A stretch of 25,184 bases of DNA from a virus. Positions 3,058 through 19,742 of this stretch are shown piece after piece (position 1 is the first letter of the stretch; each line of letters opens with the position of its first letter). The stretch covers positions 1 to 25,184 of the IMG/VR virus record IMGVR_UViG_3300007509_000058. The stretch is one strand, 5' to 3'. Under the pieces are notes generated by a model that worked only from the letters and a program-made list of their open reading frames with translations, did no database searches and was not told the DNA's origin. Position numbers and translations under genes: made by a program.

Positions 3058-3834
3058 TTAGAGCGTCCCAAGCTCCGCGAAAGCCTGGTCGACGGCATTC
3101 GTGGTAGTATCAGCGGTGCTGTTACCATACTTCTGTGTCTCAGTACTAACTGACTCAGGATCATCGACCTGAGAATTGACAAACGTATCGAGAATAGTTT
3201 GTACATCAGCAGTCGTCTTCCGCTCAAACAGTCCAGTAAAATCTGGGATGCTGTCCAGCAACTCCGCGCACTTCTCCGGCGTCAGTTCCTCGCAAAGCGG
3301 GGAAGACCGTCGACGAGGCACAAGCTTGGTCTGTGGGAAGGATGCGCCCGGAGGCTTTCCGTAGGTCATCGTGAGATCCGTGCCGGTCTCGGTGTCAGTG
3401 ATATCACCATACTCCGGGTTAAGCACAAGGTTCAAAAGAGACTCGTAAGCGGTCTTGCCGTAACCCCACACGCGTACTCCGCGCTCTTCCTCACCTCGCA
3501 CCATGACGGGGCTGAAGAACCGCTGTCGCACGAAGAGGGACTTTGCCACCTTCTTACTGTGCTCGTCGTTGTTGTCGGCTCCTTCGCGCCACAACTGTGA
3601 GGCGAACTCACATACAGGACATTCGTCTCCGTAGTTGCGCTTGGGGCACATGAAACCACCCTTTTCGATATTGTAGTGAAACCACATATCCTTGAAAGGG
3701 TCGCCGTCCGGTGTTGGAACGATTCGAATAGTCTGGTCGCCGTCCTCTGGTCGCCAGAATGTGTCATTTGAGGAGTTTCCGTCTCCGCGTAGTGACGAGA
3801 GCTTTTCTCTCATCTTATCTAAATTGATACCCAT
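3058..3834 (-). CDS. 32: Single-stranded DNA-binding protein, T4 gp32-like
   Basis: The 258-aa protein coats ssDNA at the replication fork and during recombination. The zinc site is visible as H53-x9-C63-x8-C72-x2-C75, matching the H-C-C-C ligand set of T4 gp32 in position and spacing. The N-terminus (MGINLDKMREKLSSLRG) is the basic, helical, cooperativity-type segment. The aromatic core (for example WFHY, SLFVRQRFF, VRVWGYG) fits an OB fold, and the last 50 residues are flexible and acidic to neutral. T4 gp32 is 301 aa. The ATG at 3834 follows AAGGAGATAAAAAA. The leader has an 8-bp hairpin, recalling that T4 gp32 represses its own translation through a leader structure. Confidence 0.92.
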   Translation of the reverse strand: MGINLDKMREKLSSLRGDGNSSNDTFWRPEDGDQTIRIVPTPDGDPFKDMWFHYNIEKGGFMCPKRNYGDECPVCEFASQLWREGADNNDEHSKKVAKSLFVRQRFFSPVMVRGEEERGVRVWGYGKTAYESLLNLVLNPEYGDITDTETGTDLTMTYGKPPGASFPQTKLVPRRRSSPLCEELTPEKCAELLDSIPDFTGLFERKTTADVQTILDTFVNSQVDDPESVSTETQKYGNSTADTTTNAVDQAFAELGTL

Positions 3835-3864
3835 TTTTTTATCTCCTTGTAGTTGGGTTAAAGT

Positions 3865-3888
3865 ACGATCAGCTAATATCCTGATCGT
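3865..3888 (-). promoter_or_regulatory. Hairpin in gp32 leader spanning the upstream stop codon
   Basis: ACGATCAG (3865-3872) and CTGATCGT (3881-3888) form a perfect 8-bp stem with an 8-nt loop. The stem includes the TGA of the tubulin-like gene and ends 30 nt before the gp32 ATG. It has no following U-run, so a translational control element is more likely than a terminator. Confidence 0.5.
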
Positions 3889-4717
3889 CTATGTCTATAT
3901 ACGATTGTACCATAGATGAATATTTAATGCAATAACAATATTTCTGGTCATAGGTGGTCTTAAAAACACCATAGGATACATTGATATCATCATCGAGTTG
4001 AGACTTTACATAATTGGTAATAGTTTTAAACAATGTGCCGTCCCTCTCTAGCTCTTCCTCATTGATACCATAATAGTATACCACATCTCGGACGTTTGTC
4101 AAGTCATAAAACCACTTTTCTTGCGATTTTTCGATATCGAGGACTCCAATAGTGGCAATTCTGCTTATTTCAGAGGGCTTCATGAAGTTGCCCAAAACAG
4201 GCTCTGAATTCTTAAATACATTTATCATATGAACCATGTTTACGAGGGCCTGATTGAGCACCTCATAGTATCCCATTATGGGAACATCTCCAATTCCTTG
4301 TTCGATCTTCTGGTTGTCTATCAGCCAGACAGCATCTATCATACCAGACCGGGCAAATTCCTGCAACACATTAATCACTATTTTTTCCTGTGTTTTTTGA
4401 ATCTCGCTCGCTAGCGAGAGATCGGACTGGATATATAACACTGTTATTGAATTGTTTTTGATTTGGTCGAGGAGCCTTAAAATTCCCCCTGAGATTGTTG
4501 CGGCGCCGGCGACAACCACTAATATCTCTTCGCCAGAAAACTTCAACTTTCTCTTGAGGCTTGGAAAATGCGCGTCGTACTCTTCATGAGTCTTTCTCTC
4601 TTTAATGGTGATATCTGCCTCTTTAGAGACGTCAATTCCATAAGCTTCATATTGTGGAAACTTAGAAAATGCATTGGCTATGTTGCAGCCGGCTGAACCG
4701 AGACCAATAACTTTCAT
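3869..4717 (-). CDS. Divergent tubulin/FtsZ-superfamily protein
   Basis: The 282-aa protein opens with MKVIGLGSAGCNIANAF, the first strand and phosphate loop of FtsZ/tubulin (GxGGxGxN type). VVVAGAATISGG (67-78) stands where the tubulin signature GGGTGTG should be, followed by a helix and ITVLYIQSDLSL (91-102), like the VVTxPF strand of FtsZ. The segment to about residue 168, with LNQALVNMVHMI, fits the core helix H7 region. The signature has lost most glycines, and the catalytic NxDxxD loop of FtsZ is not recognisable, only GNFMKPSEI at 176-184. It may thus bind nucleotide but hydrolyse poorly. It is shorter than FtsZ (about 380 aa). It overlaps the MazG-like gene by ATGA and precedes gp32. 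Fold call moderate to good; function unknown. Confidence 0.7.
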   Translation of the reverse strand: MKVIGLGSAGCNIANAFSKFPQYEAYGIDVSKEADITIKERKTHEEYDAHFPSLKRKLKFSGEEILVVVAGAATISGGILRLLDQIKNNSITVLYIQSDLSLASEIQKTQEKIVINVLQEFARSGMIDAVWLIDNQKIEQGIGDVPIMGYYEVLNQALVNMVHMINVFKNSEPVLGNFMKPSEISRIATIGVLDIEKSQEKWFYDLTNVRDVVYYYGINEEELERDGTLFKTITNYVKSQLDDDINVSYGVFKTTYDQKYCYCIKYSSMVQSYIDIDDQDIS

Positions 4718-12608: not shown

Positions 12609-14828
12609 TTAAGCCATGTTGTTCTTATAATATGGGGTGGGACCTCCGCCATTCTGAAGTCCGTTTTGTGTCACTTGGGTTGCAAATTGAGTTCCGGCGG
12701 ATAACTCAACATTTACGTTTCTGCCAGCCTTGGTTGCTTCGATCAACTCAACTAAAAGCTGGTTAGTATCAGCGCTGCTTGCCCCGCCTGAGGCACCACC
12801 TCGTGCCCGGGAAGGGATTGAGGCTCCTAACCGTGGGGACCTAGGAGACGAGGTGAAATCTCCAAAAAGGGGACCTCCGTCTTTGCCGACCAGGGCGGCA
12901 TCGTCCTTGTGTATTTCAGTTACTTTTCCATCCTTGAAAATAGCGTCATTAACTTTTTTAGTCCCGGAGCTTGCGAGGCCAAAAGTTGCAGCGCCGAGGG
13001 TGCCGGCAATGCCTGCCCACATCGCGACGCTAGCGCCGCCCGTAAACGGAGCAGCAATCATAGCCGCTACGCCTGCCGCCATGAGCCCAGCAGTGGCAAA
13101 ATGAGGAAGCATATTGATTGCTTTCCCGAGCCAACCGGCAAAGGTAGCAAATACTTTAATCATCGGTACCAGAGTCTGTTCAACAAACGGACGAAGATCT
13201 GCGGCAAGTGCAGCGAAAGCGGATTTTAATTGATCCACCATCTTTTGGGTAGAACGTGCCTGCTCTTCTAGTTCCTTTTGAGTCTGTGCCTGCAACTCAT
13301 ATTCAGCTGTCGACATCTTCATGATTCTGGATGCCTCGTCGACACTCATACCAAGTGCAGAGGCAATTGCTTGTTTTTCAAATCGATTCATTGCATCAAA
13401 TTGCATGCCTGAGGCGTCGACAGTATCGCGGATCATCTGCAGCCGTTCACCTTCCTTGGCGTTCAACATATCAATTGAGTTGAGATATGGACCACCCAAG
13501 ATTGCATTCAACTTGCCAACAGAGGTTGCGGCACCCTCGAATGTATCGAATTGTTTGGCTATTGACATAAGTTTGCCGACGGCAATACCTGTTGCTTTTG
13601 CTTGCTTGGCTAAGTCTTCAAAGACATCTATTGCCTGGGCGCCGTACTTACTGAGTTCTCCAAAGGCGCCTTCAAAGTCGGAGGCCATCTTGTCCATGGG
13701 AACTTCGAGAGAGGCTGCAGCACCACCAATCCGCAACATCGTGGCTTGAATAGATCTCGGTCCTTGTCCAAGAGAACGGGATAGTTGATCAAAGATCTTC
13801 CCAGCAGTACCGGCGGAAACACCTAGCTTCTCGTACAGGACTGCTGTGTCGACAAGGAGCGCGCGGTTGGCGCTGCTTAGTTCTGTAAACTGAGAGAAAC
13901 TGGAATAGAGAGCCTGGAAAGCTTTGCCGGCATCTGCTGCTGATACGCCGGCGACGACATTGCGACGTTCAGTTTGAGCAATCTCTAGATTATACTTTGT
14001 GCTGGCTCCTGTTGCTTTGCGGAAAGAAGAGATTGCTTCATCTTGTGCGGTGATGAGCTTCATTGTGCCACCAATTGCCAACTCGGCGACCTTTAAGAAT
14101 CCTGCAGCGCCGAGTGATTTAGAAACCAACCCCATTGCTTTTGATAAGCCGCCGGGACCTGTGGCTGTTCCCTTCATCGTGAGGAATTGCTTTTTCAAAT
14201 TCATCATGGTTTCTACCGCCCCGCCGCTCTTCAAACCCAAGCCGAGCGTCTTTTGTCCGAGGTGTTCAAGCTGTTCGGTCAGTCCTTTTTCACCCGCGAG
14301 GGCCCTGGTTGTTAACTTGACATCGTGCTTTAATAGTATTAACTGGTCACGGAGTTCTTTGGTCCCCTCGGCGACCTCCTTGTCGGTCGCTTTGTTCCTG
14401 TACATCTCCTTGCGCTTCGATGCCAGAGCGACCTCGGCATCCTGGACGCGGATTTCCTGTTCCTTAAGTTCTTTGGCAAAAGCTTTTGATGTACTTTCAG
14501 TAAAATCGTTATAGATTACATCAATCTCTTTAAGTTCCTGTCGAAGGAAGTCCAGGGCCTTTTTTTGTTCACCCAACGCATCATTGGCTGTCTGCACTGA
14601 GCGCGCGTAGGCATCCTGAGCAAGCCGAGCATCGCCGAAGACCTTCTCGTTCTCTGTCGCGGCTTTGGTGGTTTGCTCCAAAGCCTCTCTTTCTTCGCCG
14701 GAGGATTGCGCTGTACCGGTTGAGGGTTTTCCGGATTTCTTATCCCCTGACTTTTTACCTCCAGGAGATTTGGCGCGCTTTTTTAATTCATCTAAAATTT
14801 CTTGTAGGAGTTGTGCCTCGGACGCCAT
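12609..14828 (-). CDS. Tail tape measure protein
   Basis: The 739-aa protein sets tail length and is injected with the DNA. The N-terminal 200 residues are charged helices with a Lys/Gly/Ser-rich linker (17-45) and long coiled coil (about 80-180). The centre is Ala/Gly/Lys-rich alternation (AMGLVSKSLGAAGFLK, KAFQALYSSFSQFTEL, KLMSIAKQFDTFEGAA). A hydrophobic helical hairpin lies at about 579-618 (GLMAAGVAAMIAAPFTGGAS then MWAGIAGTLGAATFGLA), the usual membrane-inserting element. The C-terminus is Gly/Ser/Asn-rich. If helical spacing of about 1.5 angstrom per residue applies, the tail would be near 110 nm, close to T4. It follows the chaperone-type genes, the standard order. Confidence 0.85.
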   Translation of the reverse strand: MASEAQLLQEILDELKKRAKSPGGKKSGDKKSGKPSTGTAQSSGEEREALEQTTKAATENEKVFGDARLAQDAYARSVQTANDALGEQKKALDFLRQELKEIDVIYNDFTESTSKAFAKELKEQEIRVQDAEVALASKRKEMYRNKATDKEVAEGTKELRDQLILLKHDVKLTTRALAGEKGLTEQLEHLGQKTLGLGLKSGGAVETMMNLKKQFLTMKGTATGPGGLSKAMGLVSKSLGAAGFLKVAELAIGGTMKLITAQDEAISSFRKATGASTKYNLEIAQTERRNVVAGVSAADAGKAFQALYSSFSQFTELSSANRALLVDTAVLYEKLGVSAGTAGKIFDQLSRSLGQGPRSIQATMLRIGGAAASLEVPMDKMASDFEGAFGELSKYGAQAIDVFEDLAKQAKATGIAVGKLMSIAKQFDTFEGAATSVGKLNAILGGPYLNSIDMLNAKEGERLQMIRDTVDASGMQFDAMNRFEKQAIASALGMSVDEASRIMKMSTAEYELQAQTQKELEEQARSTQKMVDQLKSAFAALAADLRPFVEQTLVPMIKVFATFAGWLGKAINMLPHFATAGLMAAGVAAMIAAPFTGGASVAMWAGIAGTLGAATFGLASSGTKKVNDAIFKDGKVTEIHKDDAALVGKDGGPLFGDFTSSPRSPRLGASIPSRARGGASGGASSADTNQLLVELIEATKAGRNVNVELSAGTQFATQVTQNGLQNGGGPTPYYKNNMA

Positions 14829-14840
14829 TTATAAACCCCC

Positions 14841-15170
14841 CTAGTTGGCAAATGGCCAGCGGATGCCGGTTTCGAATTCGAATTTTCTTACGGCATCATC
14901 GAGCTGGTATTTTGAGTTTAGTGTCTGTGCATCATTGAGACCATGCTTTACAAAAGAGTCCATATAACGCTTTTCACGTTGGAGGGCGGTAAAAAAAGAA
15001 GTTATTTGTGAAGGATTGCCGCCCATTGAAACATTTAAGCTGGGAGCGCGCCCGCTATACAAACTTTGCATTAAAAAATATACATCATTTGAAAAATCGC
15101 TATAAACGTCCTCTGTGAGAATCGCATTATTCTTCATATTCAAGTTCAGATGAATCTTCTTTTTTATCAT
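14841..15170 (-). CDS. Small unknown protein between chaperone and tape measure
   Basis: The 109-aa product begins basic (MIKKKIHLNLNMKNN), has a Ser/Gly-rich middle (SGRAPSLNVSMGGNPS) and ends with a helical segment KHGLNDAQTLNSKYQLDDAVRKFE and GIRWPFAN. No known motif. It sits 12 nt before the tape measure gene and carries its own CTATTTA motif 18 nt upstream, with GAGGG as ribosome binding site. Location suggests a part in tape measure or baseplate hub assembly. Confidence 0.65.
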   Translation of the reverse strand: MIKKKIHLNLNMKNNAILTEDVYSDFSNDVYFLMQSLYSGRAPSLNVSMGGNPSQITSFFTALQREKRYMDSFVKHGLNDAQTLNSKYQLDDAVRKFEFETGIRWPFAN

Positions 15171-15219: not shown

Positions 15220-15426
15220 TCAACCCTTCATCGCTTCTTCGATTTGTTTATTTTCTTCTTCGTACTCTTTAATTAGTCTTTCTACAAACCAATGTCGCAG
15301 CTGAATGGGCAAGTTATATGCCTCGAAAAATGACCAGCCGCCATGATGCTTCAGAATAAAGAGCTCTTCGTATACCGAAGCTTGATAATCAGTCGCTAGG
15401 CCAAAAAAAGTCTGCCGTGAGCGGCA
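15220..15426 (-). CDS. gp51-like frame, reachable by +1/-2 frameshift from the gp26-like gene
   Basis: After a TAA at 15427-15429 this frame stays open to TGA at 15220-15222. From the slippery T-run it encodes about 60 residues: GLATDYQASVYEELFILKHH, GGWSFFEAYNLP, IQLRHWFVERLIKEYEEE and a tail EEAMKG. The core (ILKHHGGWSFFEAYNLPIQLRxWFVERL) looks like the short helical proteins of the T4 gp51 or phage tail-assembly chaperone type. There is no ATG or GTG start; the first TTG (15312) is halfway through the conserved part. The frame overlaps the last 13 codons of the gp26-like gene. Shifting +1 or -2 at the seven-T run would fuse the two into a protein of about 341-342 aa. A homopolymer sequencing error is the alternative. 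Confidence 0.7.
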   Translation of the reverse strand, partial: CRSRQTFFGLATDYQASVYEELFILKHHGGWSFFEAYNLPIQLRHWFVERLIKEYEEENKQIEEAMKG

Positions 15427-16246
15427 TTACCACCTTCCCGGCGTAGGAGCAGCGATCGCAGGTAAACTCGTGATTGAGGTCGACGTCGGGCTTGATCTTC
15501 TCATAAATGCGACGTAGGAAGCGGGAATCCATTGATGGCATTAGATCTACAAATTGTGCCACCATGCCAGGATCTACTACACCATTCACTGAAACGATGA
15601 CAGCTTTCAGTAGATCGGTGCTGCGACTATCAGGAAGATTCATTTTCTTCTTTCTTTCTGCAGCGGCAGACAATTGCTTCTCGATGCCGGCAGTTAAAAG
15701 TCGCACCTCTAAGACGACGGCAGTGGTGGGAAGTTTAAATTTAAATGTGCCCGCGGGTGTTGCCTCGATGTCCTCGGGGATTGAGTCTGCACAATGGAGG
15801 CTTAACGCATGCAGATCGAATGTTGTGTCGTTTACCTCATTGCAGTTGGGGCAAGTCAAACTCGTAGCATAATCAGCACCAAACCCTGTGATGCGAGCGC
15901 CGATGACGAGCGCGTTTTTATCTCCAATTAAGAAGTCATCCAGATTTAATCCCTGATCAACCAAGAGCGCCTGGAGCATTCTATCTAAGGCGATGCCCTT
16001 TTTCAGCAATGCTTCACTTGTTAAAATGTCTTCTTCTTTTGCCGTCATGTGACGGAGTTCCACAGACTCTACGCCTGCCAGGGGACTGTCTTCTGTGTAA
16101 AATCTACCTTTACTGGGGAGATCAACAAATTCTGTTGGTGTTACAAATGAAAAAATATCTCCACCCGTAGTCATGGTGGGTGGTGGGGGGCTGTTATCCT
16201 CGGGGCGTGGTGGTGTAAGTCGCTCTGAATTCTTTTTGCGAGCCAT
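15389..16246 (-). CDS. 26: gp26-like baseplate hub/assembly protein with zinc ribbon
   Basis: The 285-aa protein has the T4 gp26-family core. LPSKGRFY (43-50) leads to VELRHMTAKEEDILTSEAL (62-80), LKKGIALDRMLQALL (81-95) and LIGDKNALVIGARITGFGADY (106-126). Two Cys pairs, CPNC (132-135) and CDRC (263-266), would form one zinc ribbon bringing the ends together. The first 30 residues are Pro-rich and disordered. The frame ends WPSD just after two Phe codons on a seven-T run, from which a gp51-like frame can be entered. T4 gp26 and gp51 are needed to assemble the baseplate hub; tail chaperone pairs of other phages (lambda G/GT, P2 E/E') use similar shifts. Position between tube and tape measure is as expected. 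Confidence 0.8.
   Translation of the reverse strand: MARKKNSERLTPPRPEDNSPPPPTMTTGGDIFSFVTPTEFVDLPSKGRFYTEDSPLAGVESVELRHMTAKEEDILTSEALLKKGIALDRMLQALLVDQGLNLDDFLIGDKNALVIGARITGFGADYATSLTCPNCNEVNDTTFDLHALSLHCADSIPEDIEATPAGTFKFKLPTTAVVLEVRLLTAGIEKQLSAAAERKKKMNLPDSRSTDLLKAVIVSVNGVVDPGMVAQFVDLMPSMDSRFLRRIYEKIKPDVDLNHEFTCDRCSYAGKVVMPLTADFFWPSD
15403..15410 (-). promoter_or_regulatory. Probable programmed frameshift site CTTTTTTT
   Basis: The mRNA reads GAC-UUU-UUU-UGG in the gp26 frame. Phe-tRNA in the P site on UUU can re-pair perfectly after a +1 step (next codon GGC) or a -2 step; both enter the gp51-like frame. A -1 step would meet UAG two codons later. Confidence 0.6.
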
Positions 16247-16264: not shown

Positions 16265-16840
16265 TCACGGATCGGCAGAAAATGAAATCGCAGGTCCGGG
16301 AGTGTATATGGCATAATCATACCGCATTGTGACCGAAACATTAAGTAATTCTGTATCATTGTCGTAGTTTAGATCGCCAAAGGTTGCATTAGTTACAAAT
16401 GCATTAATCAATTGCCATTCACCAACATTGCCACCTTCGCCATTGAGTTCCTGAATGTTCACGAGACCAAGAGCGGTGAGTGCGTCTTTCTTATTAACTG
16501 TACCAGGCGCCTGATTGCTGTTAATGACGTCTTCCTGGAAATCCGGTCGCAAGTAGCCCATATCAGTAAGGGCGTTCATAAGGAGAGCATTGCCGTCAGG
16601 GTTGATGGCGTTAACGATCACAGCGTTGACGGTTTGCCATTCAACAGAGCCGGGATAGTAATAGGTATTTCCCAAAAACTTATGGGGAGCTTCGCCCACC
16701 GTATAAGCTGGCTTCGTGACCGACTTGGCAAGATATTTAGCGTACGTGAACTCGCTGCTGGGACTTACAAGCCCCGGGATGTCTAAGATAAATCTATGTG
16801 CGCGTTTTGGTTCTGATAAAGCGCTTGTCCAGAATGGCAT
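16265..16840 (-). CDS. 19: Tail tube protein, gp19-like
   Basis: The 191-aa subunit stacks as hexameric rings to make the inner tail tube. The N-terminus (FWTSALSEPKRAHRFILDIP), the loop SVTKPAYTVGEAPHKFLGNTYYYPG (41-65) and VEWQTVNAVIVNAINPD match the T4 gp19 family, and the C-terminus LLNVSVTMRYDYAIY is the closing strand. The length is close to T4 gp19 (163 aa). The gene has its own CTATTTA motif and the leader TAAGGAGTATATAAACA before ATG 16840. It follows the sheath gene after a hairpin terminator, as expected for sheath and tube made in different amounts. Confidence 0.92.
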   Translation of the reverse strand: MPFWTSALSEPKRAHRFILDIPGLVSPSSEFTYAKYLAKSVTKPAYTVGEAPHKFLGNTYYYPGSVEWQTVNAVIVNAINPDGNALLMNALTDMGYLRPDFQEDVINSNQAPGTVNKKDALTALGLVNIQELNGEGGNVGEWQLINAFVTNATFGDLNYDNDTELLNVSVTMRYDYAIYTPGPAISFSADP

Positions 16841-16904: not shown

Positions 16905-19742
16905 TTAATCGTCAAATGACGCTCCTGTTCTTGTGATATTAAAATCAATTGCGATAAATTCAATAGCTCGTGTGGGCTTCAGGAATATACGCGCATACAT
17001 TATGTTTCTATCAATCAAATCCGGAGTTGTCGTTGTGTCATCAAGAACAAGTTTATAATCAGAGAGACCGAAGTTTGTCTTGATGTCAGCAAGAATCGGT
17101 GTAACTGCTGAGATAAACCGATTCCAAGTTGTCTGAACGTTAGGATCGAAGAGAAGACGCGAGGCAACTTGCGAAATACGCTTCTTAACAAAGATCATAA
17201 GACGTCGGACATTAATGCGATCCAATGCTGATGGTGTAACCTGAAGGGTCTTCTGACCGAAGATTACAATCCCTTCTGCGGGGAACTTAGCAATGGGGTT
17301 GATATTGGCTGCATACAGATCATCCCGGTCGACGCGGCGGAGCTGATGTGAAACATCCGTAATAGGAATACCAGCTGCACCCTCAGTGAGTCCACCGCGG
17401 TTGAAGCCAGCCGGCGCGAACCAGACCTGGGTCTTCTTCTGCGAACTTGAGAACGTTCCCAAAGCAGCAACAGAAGGTGGCAACCAGACGGACGAGCCGT
17501 TAATGGTGTCGCGAGCACGGAGCCATGGGAAGAAAGCACAAGCGTAAGAGCTATTGATCGCTCGGGATCGTAGGCTGTTAATAACACTGCTAATTTCGCT
17601 AGCGGTGTTATTGCGTACGACGGCGGTGCCCTCGGCTCGGGGCTTGAAACCACCCTCAAGATCAACAACTGCCAGAGCATCTGCGCGGTCTTCACACACG
17701 TTAATCAACTGGTTCGTAAGACCGCTCTGCTTAATGCCCGGGATGGATGCGAGATTCATCTCAACCACCTCAGGATCTGCTGTAGAGTCGATAGACTGTC
17801 GAATCGAGTTAAAGGTGTAGCTCGTCGTGTCGGTAGGCGTAGTGCCATCCCACTGACTATTACGGAAGGGATCAAGCTCGGTAATATCTAAGCCATCGAA
17901 ACCACCGTAGAGGGGTACCGTAAAGCGGTCGAAGCCAGCGTCGAGGACGCCAGAAACAGCACCGTTAACATTCACCAAGGCGGTGCCATCGGCATGCGAA
18001 CCAGAGACCCAAGTACCCGCGGAACCACTGATGTCATCCAGAGTGAAATACATCGAGAGTTCCCTGACTCCAGTAGAGGCGCCGGCGAACATGTCGCCAA
18101 CCATTTGTCCGCGGGGGCGGAGCAAATCGATATTAGACTGGTCAAAGACGGTTCCGCCGGCGGTGCGGCTAGCCTGGAACCCAAAGTATGCATCGGTCGC
18201 GTTATTAAGGTTACCGGATGCAGCGCTGACGCGCAGTTCGGGTGCGGGATAAAGTACTGAAGCACTGAGTTGTGATCCCGAGACAACGAAAACACCATCG
18301 GTGATTAGAGCGGCGCCCGAGATGCTCACGGGACGGGCTTCTACGTGGAGGGCTGAACCGGTGACCCAGTTTCCAGCAGAAGTAGATGCAAGGACGGTAT
18401 CGTCCTCATACTTCACAATCCCCCTAAAGCCAAAGGGAAGCAAACTAGCATTTTCACCAACCGTATCTTCATTAACGGCCACGCGGATGTACTGGGAAAC
18501 ATTGTTATAGTCACCCTGTTGGATGTAGCGGCGTTCTGTTGAGTTCCATGTAGTATGCTTATCACCAATTTTGCGGGCGATGTAATTCAACGACTCTGGG
18601 TTCAGGGACAGATCATTGAACTGTTCAATGATCTTAACCACGTTGTCTGAATCGTCGAGCTTACGAACAACCAGAGAAAATGAGCCGTAATCACTTGATT
18701 CATTGGTCGATATCTTGATGTCCTGGATAGAGACCTTAAGGTTTCTATTGGTCCAGTCTCCGGGCTGGTTAAGAGCGTGAACTGTGAACAGAGTGGGCAT
18801 ATCGAGAACACTAAAAGAGTTTGATGCCGCAGCGCGTTGAAGAACATCGCAACCAATAATAGCCGGGGACTGAGCGCTTTGGACAGGGCTCCTAAAATTA
18901 TCGGCATCATTGCCAGAGTTGGCAAGATTGACGATCGCAGCGTATGTGCTGCCGCCAGGATCTGTGATATTCGCCTTTAAGTGGCGATCAAACGTCTCTC
19001 CCAAGAAATAGTTATCAGTCGACGTCATAATCGTACTATTAGTACGCTGGGGGGTTGTATTAAACACCTTTCGAATATACTTTGAGTCATTTACACTAAA
19101 GTTGAAACTAGTGGTCTTATTAGTTCCCGCCGAGTTGGCATTGTTGACAATCATCTTGAACTCATACGGATTTCCGCTGTCAACGACGACCACGTTAGAA
19201 CCCGTAGTAGCAACATCCGAACCGCTAACACTTACACCGGCTGTCGTAACCAAGGTGCCAGACAGCTGAAGGTAAGTGGAAGCATCCGTGGTATAGAATA
19301 CAGCAGCAAGCGCGCCAGTAAGAGAGAGTGCTCCTGCAGATTCAAACACCACAAGTCCCCACGCCTTACCATCGTCACCGCCGCTCCAGCCGGCTTTACC
19401 AGCGGCTGCGGCGGACGAGTCTTCATTTCCAAGAAGACGAATATAGGTTAAGGGAGAACTATTACGAAGATAAGCTTGTGCAGCATAGGCTCCATATGTA
19501 GGAGCGGAAACATTCGCGCCTAGGCGCCAAACATCTCCATTGAGGGCTCCGGGAATTGGAGCACCAAATACATTGACAAACTCGGAAAATGAGTTAACCG
19601 TAGTGGGACGCAAGGCTGGTCCTTTTTCTGCACGACCTATAACAACCGGTCCTATTCCTGCTGGAGAGGCTGGCATTTGAGAATTATCAATTTCGTTGAT
19701 AAAAACTCCGGGTGATACAAATCTATAATTTTTTACTGACAT
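16905..19742 (-). CDS. 18: Contractile tail sheath protein, gp18-like, enlarged
   Basis: The 945-aa subunit forms the contractile sheath. The N-terminus (SPGVFINEIDNSQMPASPAG, then VIGRAEKGPALRPT) and the C-terminal third (about 690-945) are the conserved sheath core. Visible there are VWFAPAGFNRGGL, AANINPIAKFPAEGIVIFGQKTL, RINVRRLMIFVKKRISQVA and the closing strand IEFIAIDFNITRTG. T4 gp18 is 659 aa; the extra 280 or so residues lie in the middle. They are Ser/Thr/Gly/Val-rich, beta-type sequence that probably forms added outer domains. The ATG at 19742 has TTTAGGAGAT upstream and its own CTATTTA motif; a terminator follows the stop. The bounds are clear and I see no frameshift. Confidence 0.95.
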   Translation of the reverse strand: MSVKNYRFVSPGVFINEIDNSQMPASPAGIGPVVIGRAEKGPALRPTTVNSFSEFVNVFGAPIPGALNGDVWRLGANVSAPTYGAYAAQAYLRNSSPLTYIRLLGNEDSSAAAAGKAGWSGGDDGKAWGLVVFESAGALSLTGALAAVFYTTDASTYLQLSGTLVTTAGVSVSGSDVATTGSNVVVVDSGNPYEFKMIVNNANSAGTNKTTSFNFSVNDSKYIRKVFNTTPQRTNSTIMTSTDNYFLGETFDRHLKANITDPGGSTYAAIVNLANSGNDADNFRSPVQSAQSPAIIGCDVLQRAAASNSFSVLDMPTLFTVHALNQPGDWTNRNLKVSIQDIKISTNESSDYGSFSLVVRKLDDSDNVVKIIEQFNDLSLNPESLNYIARKIGDKHTTWNSTERRYIQQGDYNNVSQYIRVAVNEDTVGENASLLPFGFRGIVKYEDDTVLASTSAGNWVTGSALHVEARPVSISGAALITDGVFVVSGSQLSASVLYPAPELRVSAASGNLNNATDAYFGFQASRTAGGTVFDQSNIDLLRPRGQMVGDMFAGASTGVRELSMYFTLDDISGSAGTWVSGSHADGTALVNVNGAVSGVLDAGFDRFTVPLYGGFDGLDITELDPFRNSQWDGTTPTDTTSYTFNSIRQSIDSTADPEVVEMNLASIPGIKQSGLTNQLINVCEDRADALAVVDLEGGFKPRAEGTAVVRNNTASEISSVINSLRSRAINSSYACAFFPWLRARDTINGSSVWLPPSVAALGTFSSSQKKTQVWFAPAGFNRGGLTEGAAGIPITDVSHQLRRVDRDDLYAANINPIAKFPAEGIVIFGQKTLQVTPSALDRINVRRLMIFVKKRISQVASRLLFDPNVQTTWNRFISAVTPILADIKTNFGLSDYKLVLDDTTTTPDLIDRNIMYARIFLKPTRAIEFIAIDFNITRTGASFDD

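Follow-up and report, generated by a model that had tools for sequence, protein, structure and literature searches.

If the second reading frame that overlaps the end of a gp26-like gene encodes a protein domain, how could that domain be made when its frame has no start codon of its own? The question is raised by a stretch of viral DNA of 25,184 nucleotides (IMG/VR record IMGVR_UViG_3300007509_000058, hereafter the window), in which a gp26-like gene on the minus strand (16246-15389, encoding 285 aa) closes with GCA GAC TTT TTT TGG CCT AGC GAC TGA. As the original prediction had it, this gene ends about 13 codons into a second frame, whose open stretch begins 38 nt ahead of where the gp26 stop codon ends and runs to a stop codon of its own at 15222-15220. 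That frame has neither ATG nor GTG, and TTG first appears at residue 38 of 68, inside the conserved core. Read in the +1 frame from GGC (15402), it gives ORF2 (15220-15402, minus strand, including the stop codon), a gp51-like domain of 60 aa with three predicted helices. The overlap contains GAC-UUU-UUU-UGG with a run of exactly seven Ts (15409-15403), a slippery site of the form UUU UUU U(GG C), and a -1 shift there runs into a stop codon at once (..LFLA*), again as predicted; the coding strand of the 20 main window genes has just one further T7 run, in a gene at 14841-15170. Translation with a +1 step yields a predicted fusion of 341 aa (15220-16246, minus strand) with the junction ..TADFF-GLATDY.., and a -2 step would yield 342 aa with the junction TADFFFGLATDY, in agreement with the 341-342 aa for the fusion and 285 aa for the short form proposed at the outset.

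The short form is recognizable by its sequence, its predicted structure and its neighbours. Residues 43-282 match the whole PF12322 domain (E = 8e-11, 42.4 bits, cut-off 24.5), and the protein also falls into PHROG 150 (baseplate hub). Its AF2 model (pLDDT 84.9) has viral Foldseek matches to T4-type baseplate hub proteins with E down to 5e-20, and nothing significant in the PDB; the ORF2 model (pLDDT 88.8) has no Foldseek matches. Immediately upstream of the gp26-like gene is a tail tube gene (16265-16840, minus strand; PHROG 4542, E = 3e-16, and PHROG 45, E = 1e-9), and downstream of the locus is a tape measure gene (12609-14828, minus strand; PHROG 167, E = 1e-6), an order that recurs in Flavobacterium phage immuto (L003) and in LIS04 (L006). 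Tailed phages usually carry their tail assembly chaperones between the tube and tape measure genes, and what the locus encodes is very probably such a chaperone, from a marine contractile-tailed phage of the T4 superfamily, with the 285-aa protein as its predicted short form (TAC-N) and the fusion as its predicted long form (TAC-NC). The gene at 14841-15170, flanked by ORF2 and the tape measure gene, encodes 109 aa with no Pfam or PHROG match.

Because all 20 main genes of the window start with ATG and 15 of them carry a Shine-Dalgarno-like motif (18% would be expected by chance), the lack of any start codon in the region of ORF2 stands out and is not a matter of chance. Relatives were gathered from a first scan of 581 encoding stretches, of which the best 80 were kept, and from further scans of 80, 20 and 2 loci; after duplicates were removed there were 138 distinct complete pairs, including the window, IMG/VR contigs and isolate phages (named members are the Microcystis phage Mel-JY01, Flavobacterium phage immuto, GXN1, LIS04 and LR756508). 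The alignment of relatives that had been suggested as a check came out in favour of the prediction: the gp51-like domain lies in the +1 frame at the site in every one of the 138. In 73 of these, the ORF2 frame has no ATG, GTG or TTG up to codon 13, and in 65 some such codon occurs upstream or within the first 13 codons, at positions that are not conserved. The median dN/dS of the ORF2 frame among relatives is 0.16, a comparative signature of purifying selection.

The site itself is more constant than its coding role requires. The commonest form among the 138 is TTYTTTTGGCCT, and a relative from genome contigs (L231) has the same TTTTTTTGGCCT site. TTT TTT TGG CCT accounts for 113 sequences, TTC TTT TGG CCT for 14, CTT TTT TGG CCT for three and TTT TTT TAC CCT for two, with TTT TTT CAC, TTT TTT CGT, AAC TTT CTA, TTT CTT TGG, TTC TTT CGT and TTT TTT AGT seen once each. 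The P-site codon is TTT in 137 relatives and CTT in one, counts that are not independent trials because the sequences are related (identity to the window ranges from 99% to below 30%); four other conserved Phe columns have TTT in 71-82% (background 75%), and the codon preceding the P-site codon shows only a mild bias (89% TTT). The next base is T in 133, C in four and A in one, such that re-pairing after a +1 step (UUU to UUU or UUC) is possible in 137 of the 138, the exception being L006 (UUUA); in L003, where the site is the RF2-like CUU UGG C, the step would be from CUU to UUU.

Comparative sequence evidence of this kind establishes the frame, the site and the homology of both parts, and makes it very probable that a frameshift joins the gp26-like and gp51-like parts, as originally proposed. 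We conclude that a programmed +1 frameshift most probably links the gp26-like protein to the ORF2 domain, both the slippage and its efficiency being predictions of the model. Most ribosomes would stop at TGA and release the short form, and a minority would pause with UGG in the A site; peptidyl-tRNA-Phe on UUU (15406-15404) would then slip +1 onto UUU (15405-15403), and with GGC as the next codon, translation would pass into the second frame and add the 60-aa domain. A small hairpin upstream, refolding as the mRNA leaves the ribosome, probably biases the slip forward. The two products may act like lambda's TAC-N and TAC-NC, coating the tape measure protein and recruiting tube subunits.

The same fusion, with one extra Phe, could arise from a -2 shift, the direction used by Mu, and the seven-U run of the window does let Phe-tRNA re-pair after such a step. 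The original prediction left the choice between +1 and -2 open, and variation at the site decides it for +1: in 15 relatives with TTC TTT (14 with TTC TTT TGG, plus GXN1, L004), a Phe-tRNA moved back by two would meet UCU and has no possibility of re-pairing, and because these relatives permit +1 re-pairing only, we take the shift to be +1. A hairpin upstream, such as the one described below, attenuates backward (-1) slips in vitro (PMC6321510), which likewise speaks against -2. Moreover, L003 (TTT CTT T) and L002 (AAC TTT C) are compatible with +1 only, and the preceding codon is mildly biased whereas the P-site codon is fixed; a -2 shift is therefore improbable. Transcriptional slippage on homopolymers occurs in bacteria, and RNA polymerase slipping on the T run, which is T7 in most relatives, could supply mRNAs that have lost one U or gained two. 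Yet 16 relatives with runs of only 3-4 Ts (TTC TTT T, TTC TTT C or AAC TTT C) retain the arrangement, and selection acts on the in-phase P-site UUU, not on run length. Because the variant sites have such short T runs, slippage by the polymerase is still less probable, and it is rejected along with the -2 shift on the slippery-site variants.

It might also be supposed that ORF2 is a separate gene with a non-standard start codon, coupled to the gp26 stop: three relatives (L005, L186 and L191) do have it as a separate gene, with an ATG in another frame, and small gp51 is annotated as a gene of its own in P-SSM2, HTVC008M and KVP40. However, there is no conserved start codon in the +1 clade, coding need does not account for how strongly the slippery codon is conserved, and in T4 gp51 the domain is fused to a PF12322 domain; we hold this explanation to be about as improbable as a -2 shift. 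Relatives with a normal ATG had been named in advance as evidence against frameshifting, and such relatives exist, but ORF2 lies in another frame in all three and two of them (L186 and L191) read as derived. With translation of ORF2 starting at an ATG of its own in these three, it follows that some phages can use the domain without fusion. Finally, since the two frames differ by a single T within a seven-T run, an assembly or sequencing error could have split what is really one continuous gene, an explanation refuted by the 138 distinct sequences, which keep the same phase throughout, in isolates as well as at sites that lack a long run. The occurrence of the arrangement in isolate genomes and in more than 130 distinct sequences shows that it is not a sequencing error, and the chance of one is close to nil. 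Eight or six Ts had been expected to signal a continuous gene; a run of six (or of nine) would indeed join the frames, but one of eight would lead into the -1 frame and an immediate stop.

The predicted +1 frameshift is accompanied by a putative stimulator, an upstream RNA hairpin whose 3' arm ends 5-9 nt before the P-site codon. In the window it is UGCCG-CUCA-CGGCA (15426-15413, minus strand), with the arm ending at -7 and a predicted energy of -7 kcal/mol when folded alone. In 20 representatives of the window's clade that share less than 80% identity, the strongest stem for which the 3' arm ends at -6 to -9 exceeds that obtained by synonymous recoding (z of 5-8, and 7-8 at the place of the window's hairpin; 0/200), and no other position in the stretch tested shows as strong a stem signal. 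A stem is kept despite differences in sequence and register in L037, L042, L047, L050, L054 and L064; in a second clade, the Microcystis-phage group, the signal is much weaker (z of 3.0 at -7). By this comparison, the stem at the hairpin position is conserved beyond codon needs. There was no convincing downstream RNA stimulator (mean z of -0.05 to -0.9 against synonymous recoding), nor any Rfam match in the window. On 70S ribosomes in vitro, +1 shifts are stimulated and -1 shifts attenuated by a hairpin that lies upstream and adjoins the E site (Huang et al. 2018, PMC6321510), and the same upstream effect is described in synthetic constructs carrying a SARS coronavirus element, as is a 5' stem loop for the bypassing of T4 gene 60 (Atkins et al. 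2016, PMC5009743). The hairpin probably makes the forward slip easier and backward slips harder, a role that we infer, since a longer upstream stretch of the window is predicted to form an alternative, longer fold.

What, then, is the relation of this fusion to the gp26 and gp51 of T4, which are listed as hub assembly chaperones (PMC3004832)? Both T4 proteins (gp26, 208 aa; gp51, 249 aa) contain PF12322 and are paralogues, with gp51 extending about 48 residues beyond the point where gp26 ends. ORF2 aligns with a set of small gp51 proteins (from P-SSM2, S-PM2, HTVC008M, Cr30, KVP40 and RaK2) at an hhalign probability of 96.7 (P = 4e-10, 0/100 column shuffles), and this set aligns with the C-terminus of T4 gp51 at 96.5 (P = 9e-10). 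Because the direct comparison of ORF2 with the T4 gp51 C-terminus is weak (probability 3-6, P = 0.006-0.014, with 5/300 shuffles as high), the homology rests on the cyanophage and KVP40 intermediates; the fusion is co-linear with T4 gp51 across the junction. From the paralogy of gp26 and gp51 and the resemblance of ORF2 to the gp51 extension, it follows that the short form is gp26-like and the fusion gp51-like. Calling ORF2 itself gp51-like, as had been done, is apt if gp51 means the small protein of cyanophages and KVP40, the counterpart of the C-terminal piece of T4 gp51; T4 gp51, by contrast, is a paralogue of gp26 over the full length of PF12322. Since it is also encoded divergently from gp26, T4 makes its pair by gene duplication and not by frameshifting, contrary to the suggestion that both share one mechanism. 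A more distant resemblance, of ORF2 to DUF6760 (PF20546; 38 of 72 members give matches with E of 0.1 or lower, the best being 1e-4), is suggestive of remote kinship only, the window's own ORF2 giving E = 0.006 and 17 bits, below the curated cut-off of 27 bits. DUF6760 occurs in clusters of contractile injection systems, where a shared chaperone is possible.

Other T4-type phages reach the domain differently, which counts against the +1 fusion. In Cr30 (L223), RaK2 (L225), P-SSM2 (L219), S-PM2 (L220), HTVC008M (L222) and KVP40 (L224), ORF2 lies in the -1 frame at U-UUU-UUY, likely a -1 shift site, and a GGAGGG- or GAGGG-like motif lies upstream in P-SSM2, S-PM2, HTVC008M and Cr30. No more than one PF12322 copy is detectable in the large genomes that have a shift site, and T4 has two. 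In a tree of the short proteins, +1 members cluster, and T4 gp26 and gp51 form one duplication group; the placement of RaK2 and L005, both on long branches, is unsure. L186 and L191 nest inside the +1 clade beside L003, with an ORF2 ATG after the gp26 stop (near 2705) and a decayed site, and for these reasons read as a derived loss of frameshifting. In L005, ORF2 has its own ATG near 3711, at or after the gp26 stop, with an altered site and a frame other than +1, which likewise looks like a loss of the shift. A tentative reading, to which we give slightly less than even odds, is that homologous chaperone genes have switched among -1 shift, +1 shift, duplication and separate initiation, that the 5' element (a distant Shine-Dalgarno-like motif or a near hairpin) would set the direction, and that a widespread natural +1 shift may be stimulated by hairpin refolding at the mRNA exit.

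Among known systems, the closest in plan is lambda gpG/gpGT, with which the locus shares its position as a tape-measure chaperone locus and, as predicted here, a short protein with a low-level fusion and a shift shortly before the first frame ends (PMC5009743); lambda shifts -1, whereas the shift here would be +1 on UUU UUU U, with an upstream hairpin and a PF12322 protein, and no sequence relation of the PF12322 short form to lambda gpG was detected. T4 shares the C-terminal extension of gp51 homologous to ORF2, but has two divergent genes and a gp26 end (TTC TTT GAG TTA CTA TAA) without a U run. The cyanophages, HTVC008M, KVP40, Cr30 and RaK2 share a single PF12322 gene, followed on the 3' side by a small gp51 domain, and a poly-U junction; they differ in the -1 frame of ORF2 and, in most, an ATG near it. 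In E. coli RF2 (CUU UGA C), a P-site YUU likewise re-pairs +1 on UUU beside a slow A-site codon, L003 having CUU UGG C, but RF2 relies on an internal Shine-Dalgarno duplex and a stop codon where the present site has a hairpin in a similar place and a sense codon.

Frameshifted tail chaperones of the lambda type are well known (TAC-N/TAC-NC; Xu, Hendrix & Duda 2004, in Atkins et al. 2016, PMC5009743), and the same review singles out T4 as an exception to the conserved tail-chaperone frameshift. The idea was not as absent from the literature as had been supposed: the KVP40 record already notes the similarity of its ORF to the gp51 C-terminus, and Vladimirov, Gautam & Davidson (2022, Virology 566:9) identifies tail assembly chaperones of T4-like phages and is credited, in text citing it, with poly-T -1 signals there. 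The +1 variant appears to be new, as does the upstream hairpin as an element, and the open-licence literature searched yielded no account of either. In the +1 clade, fusion is the sole evident route to ORF2 expression, which supports the view that in T4 one chaperone exists in a short form, gp26, and a long form, gp51. The gene family offers a defined switch of shift direction, and the hairpin a natural test of whether a hairpin at the mRNA exit sets the direction of slippage.

ORF2 is unannotated in LIS04 and GXN1 (L004), and the annotation of Flavobacterium phage immuto (L003:3701-3943) shows no more of it than a hypothetical fragment of 36 aa (3833-3943), with the frameshift product missing; automatic annotation evidently misses the long form. 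Elsewhere in the window, the tail sheath protein (16905-19742) is unusually long, at 945 aa, with its sheath matches mainly in the C-terminal half.
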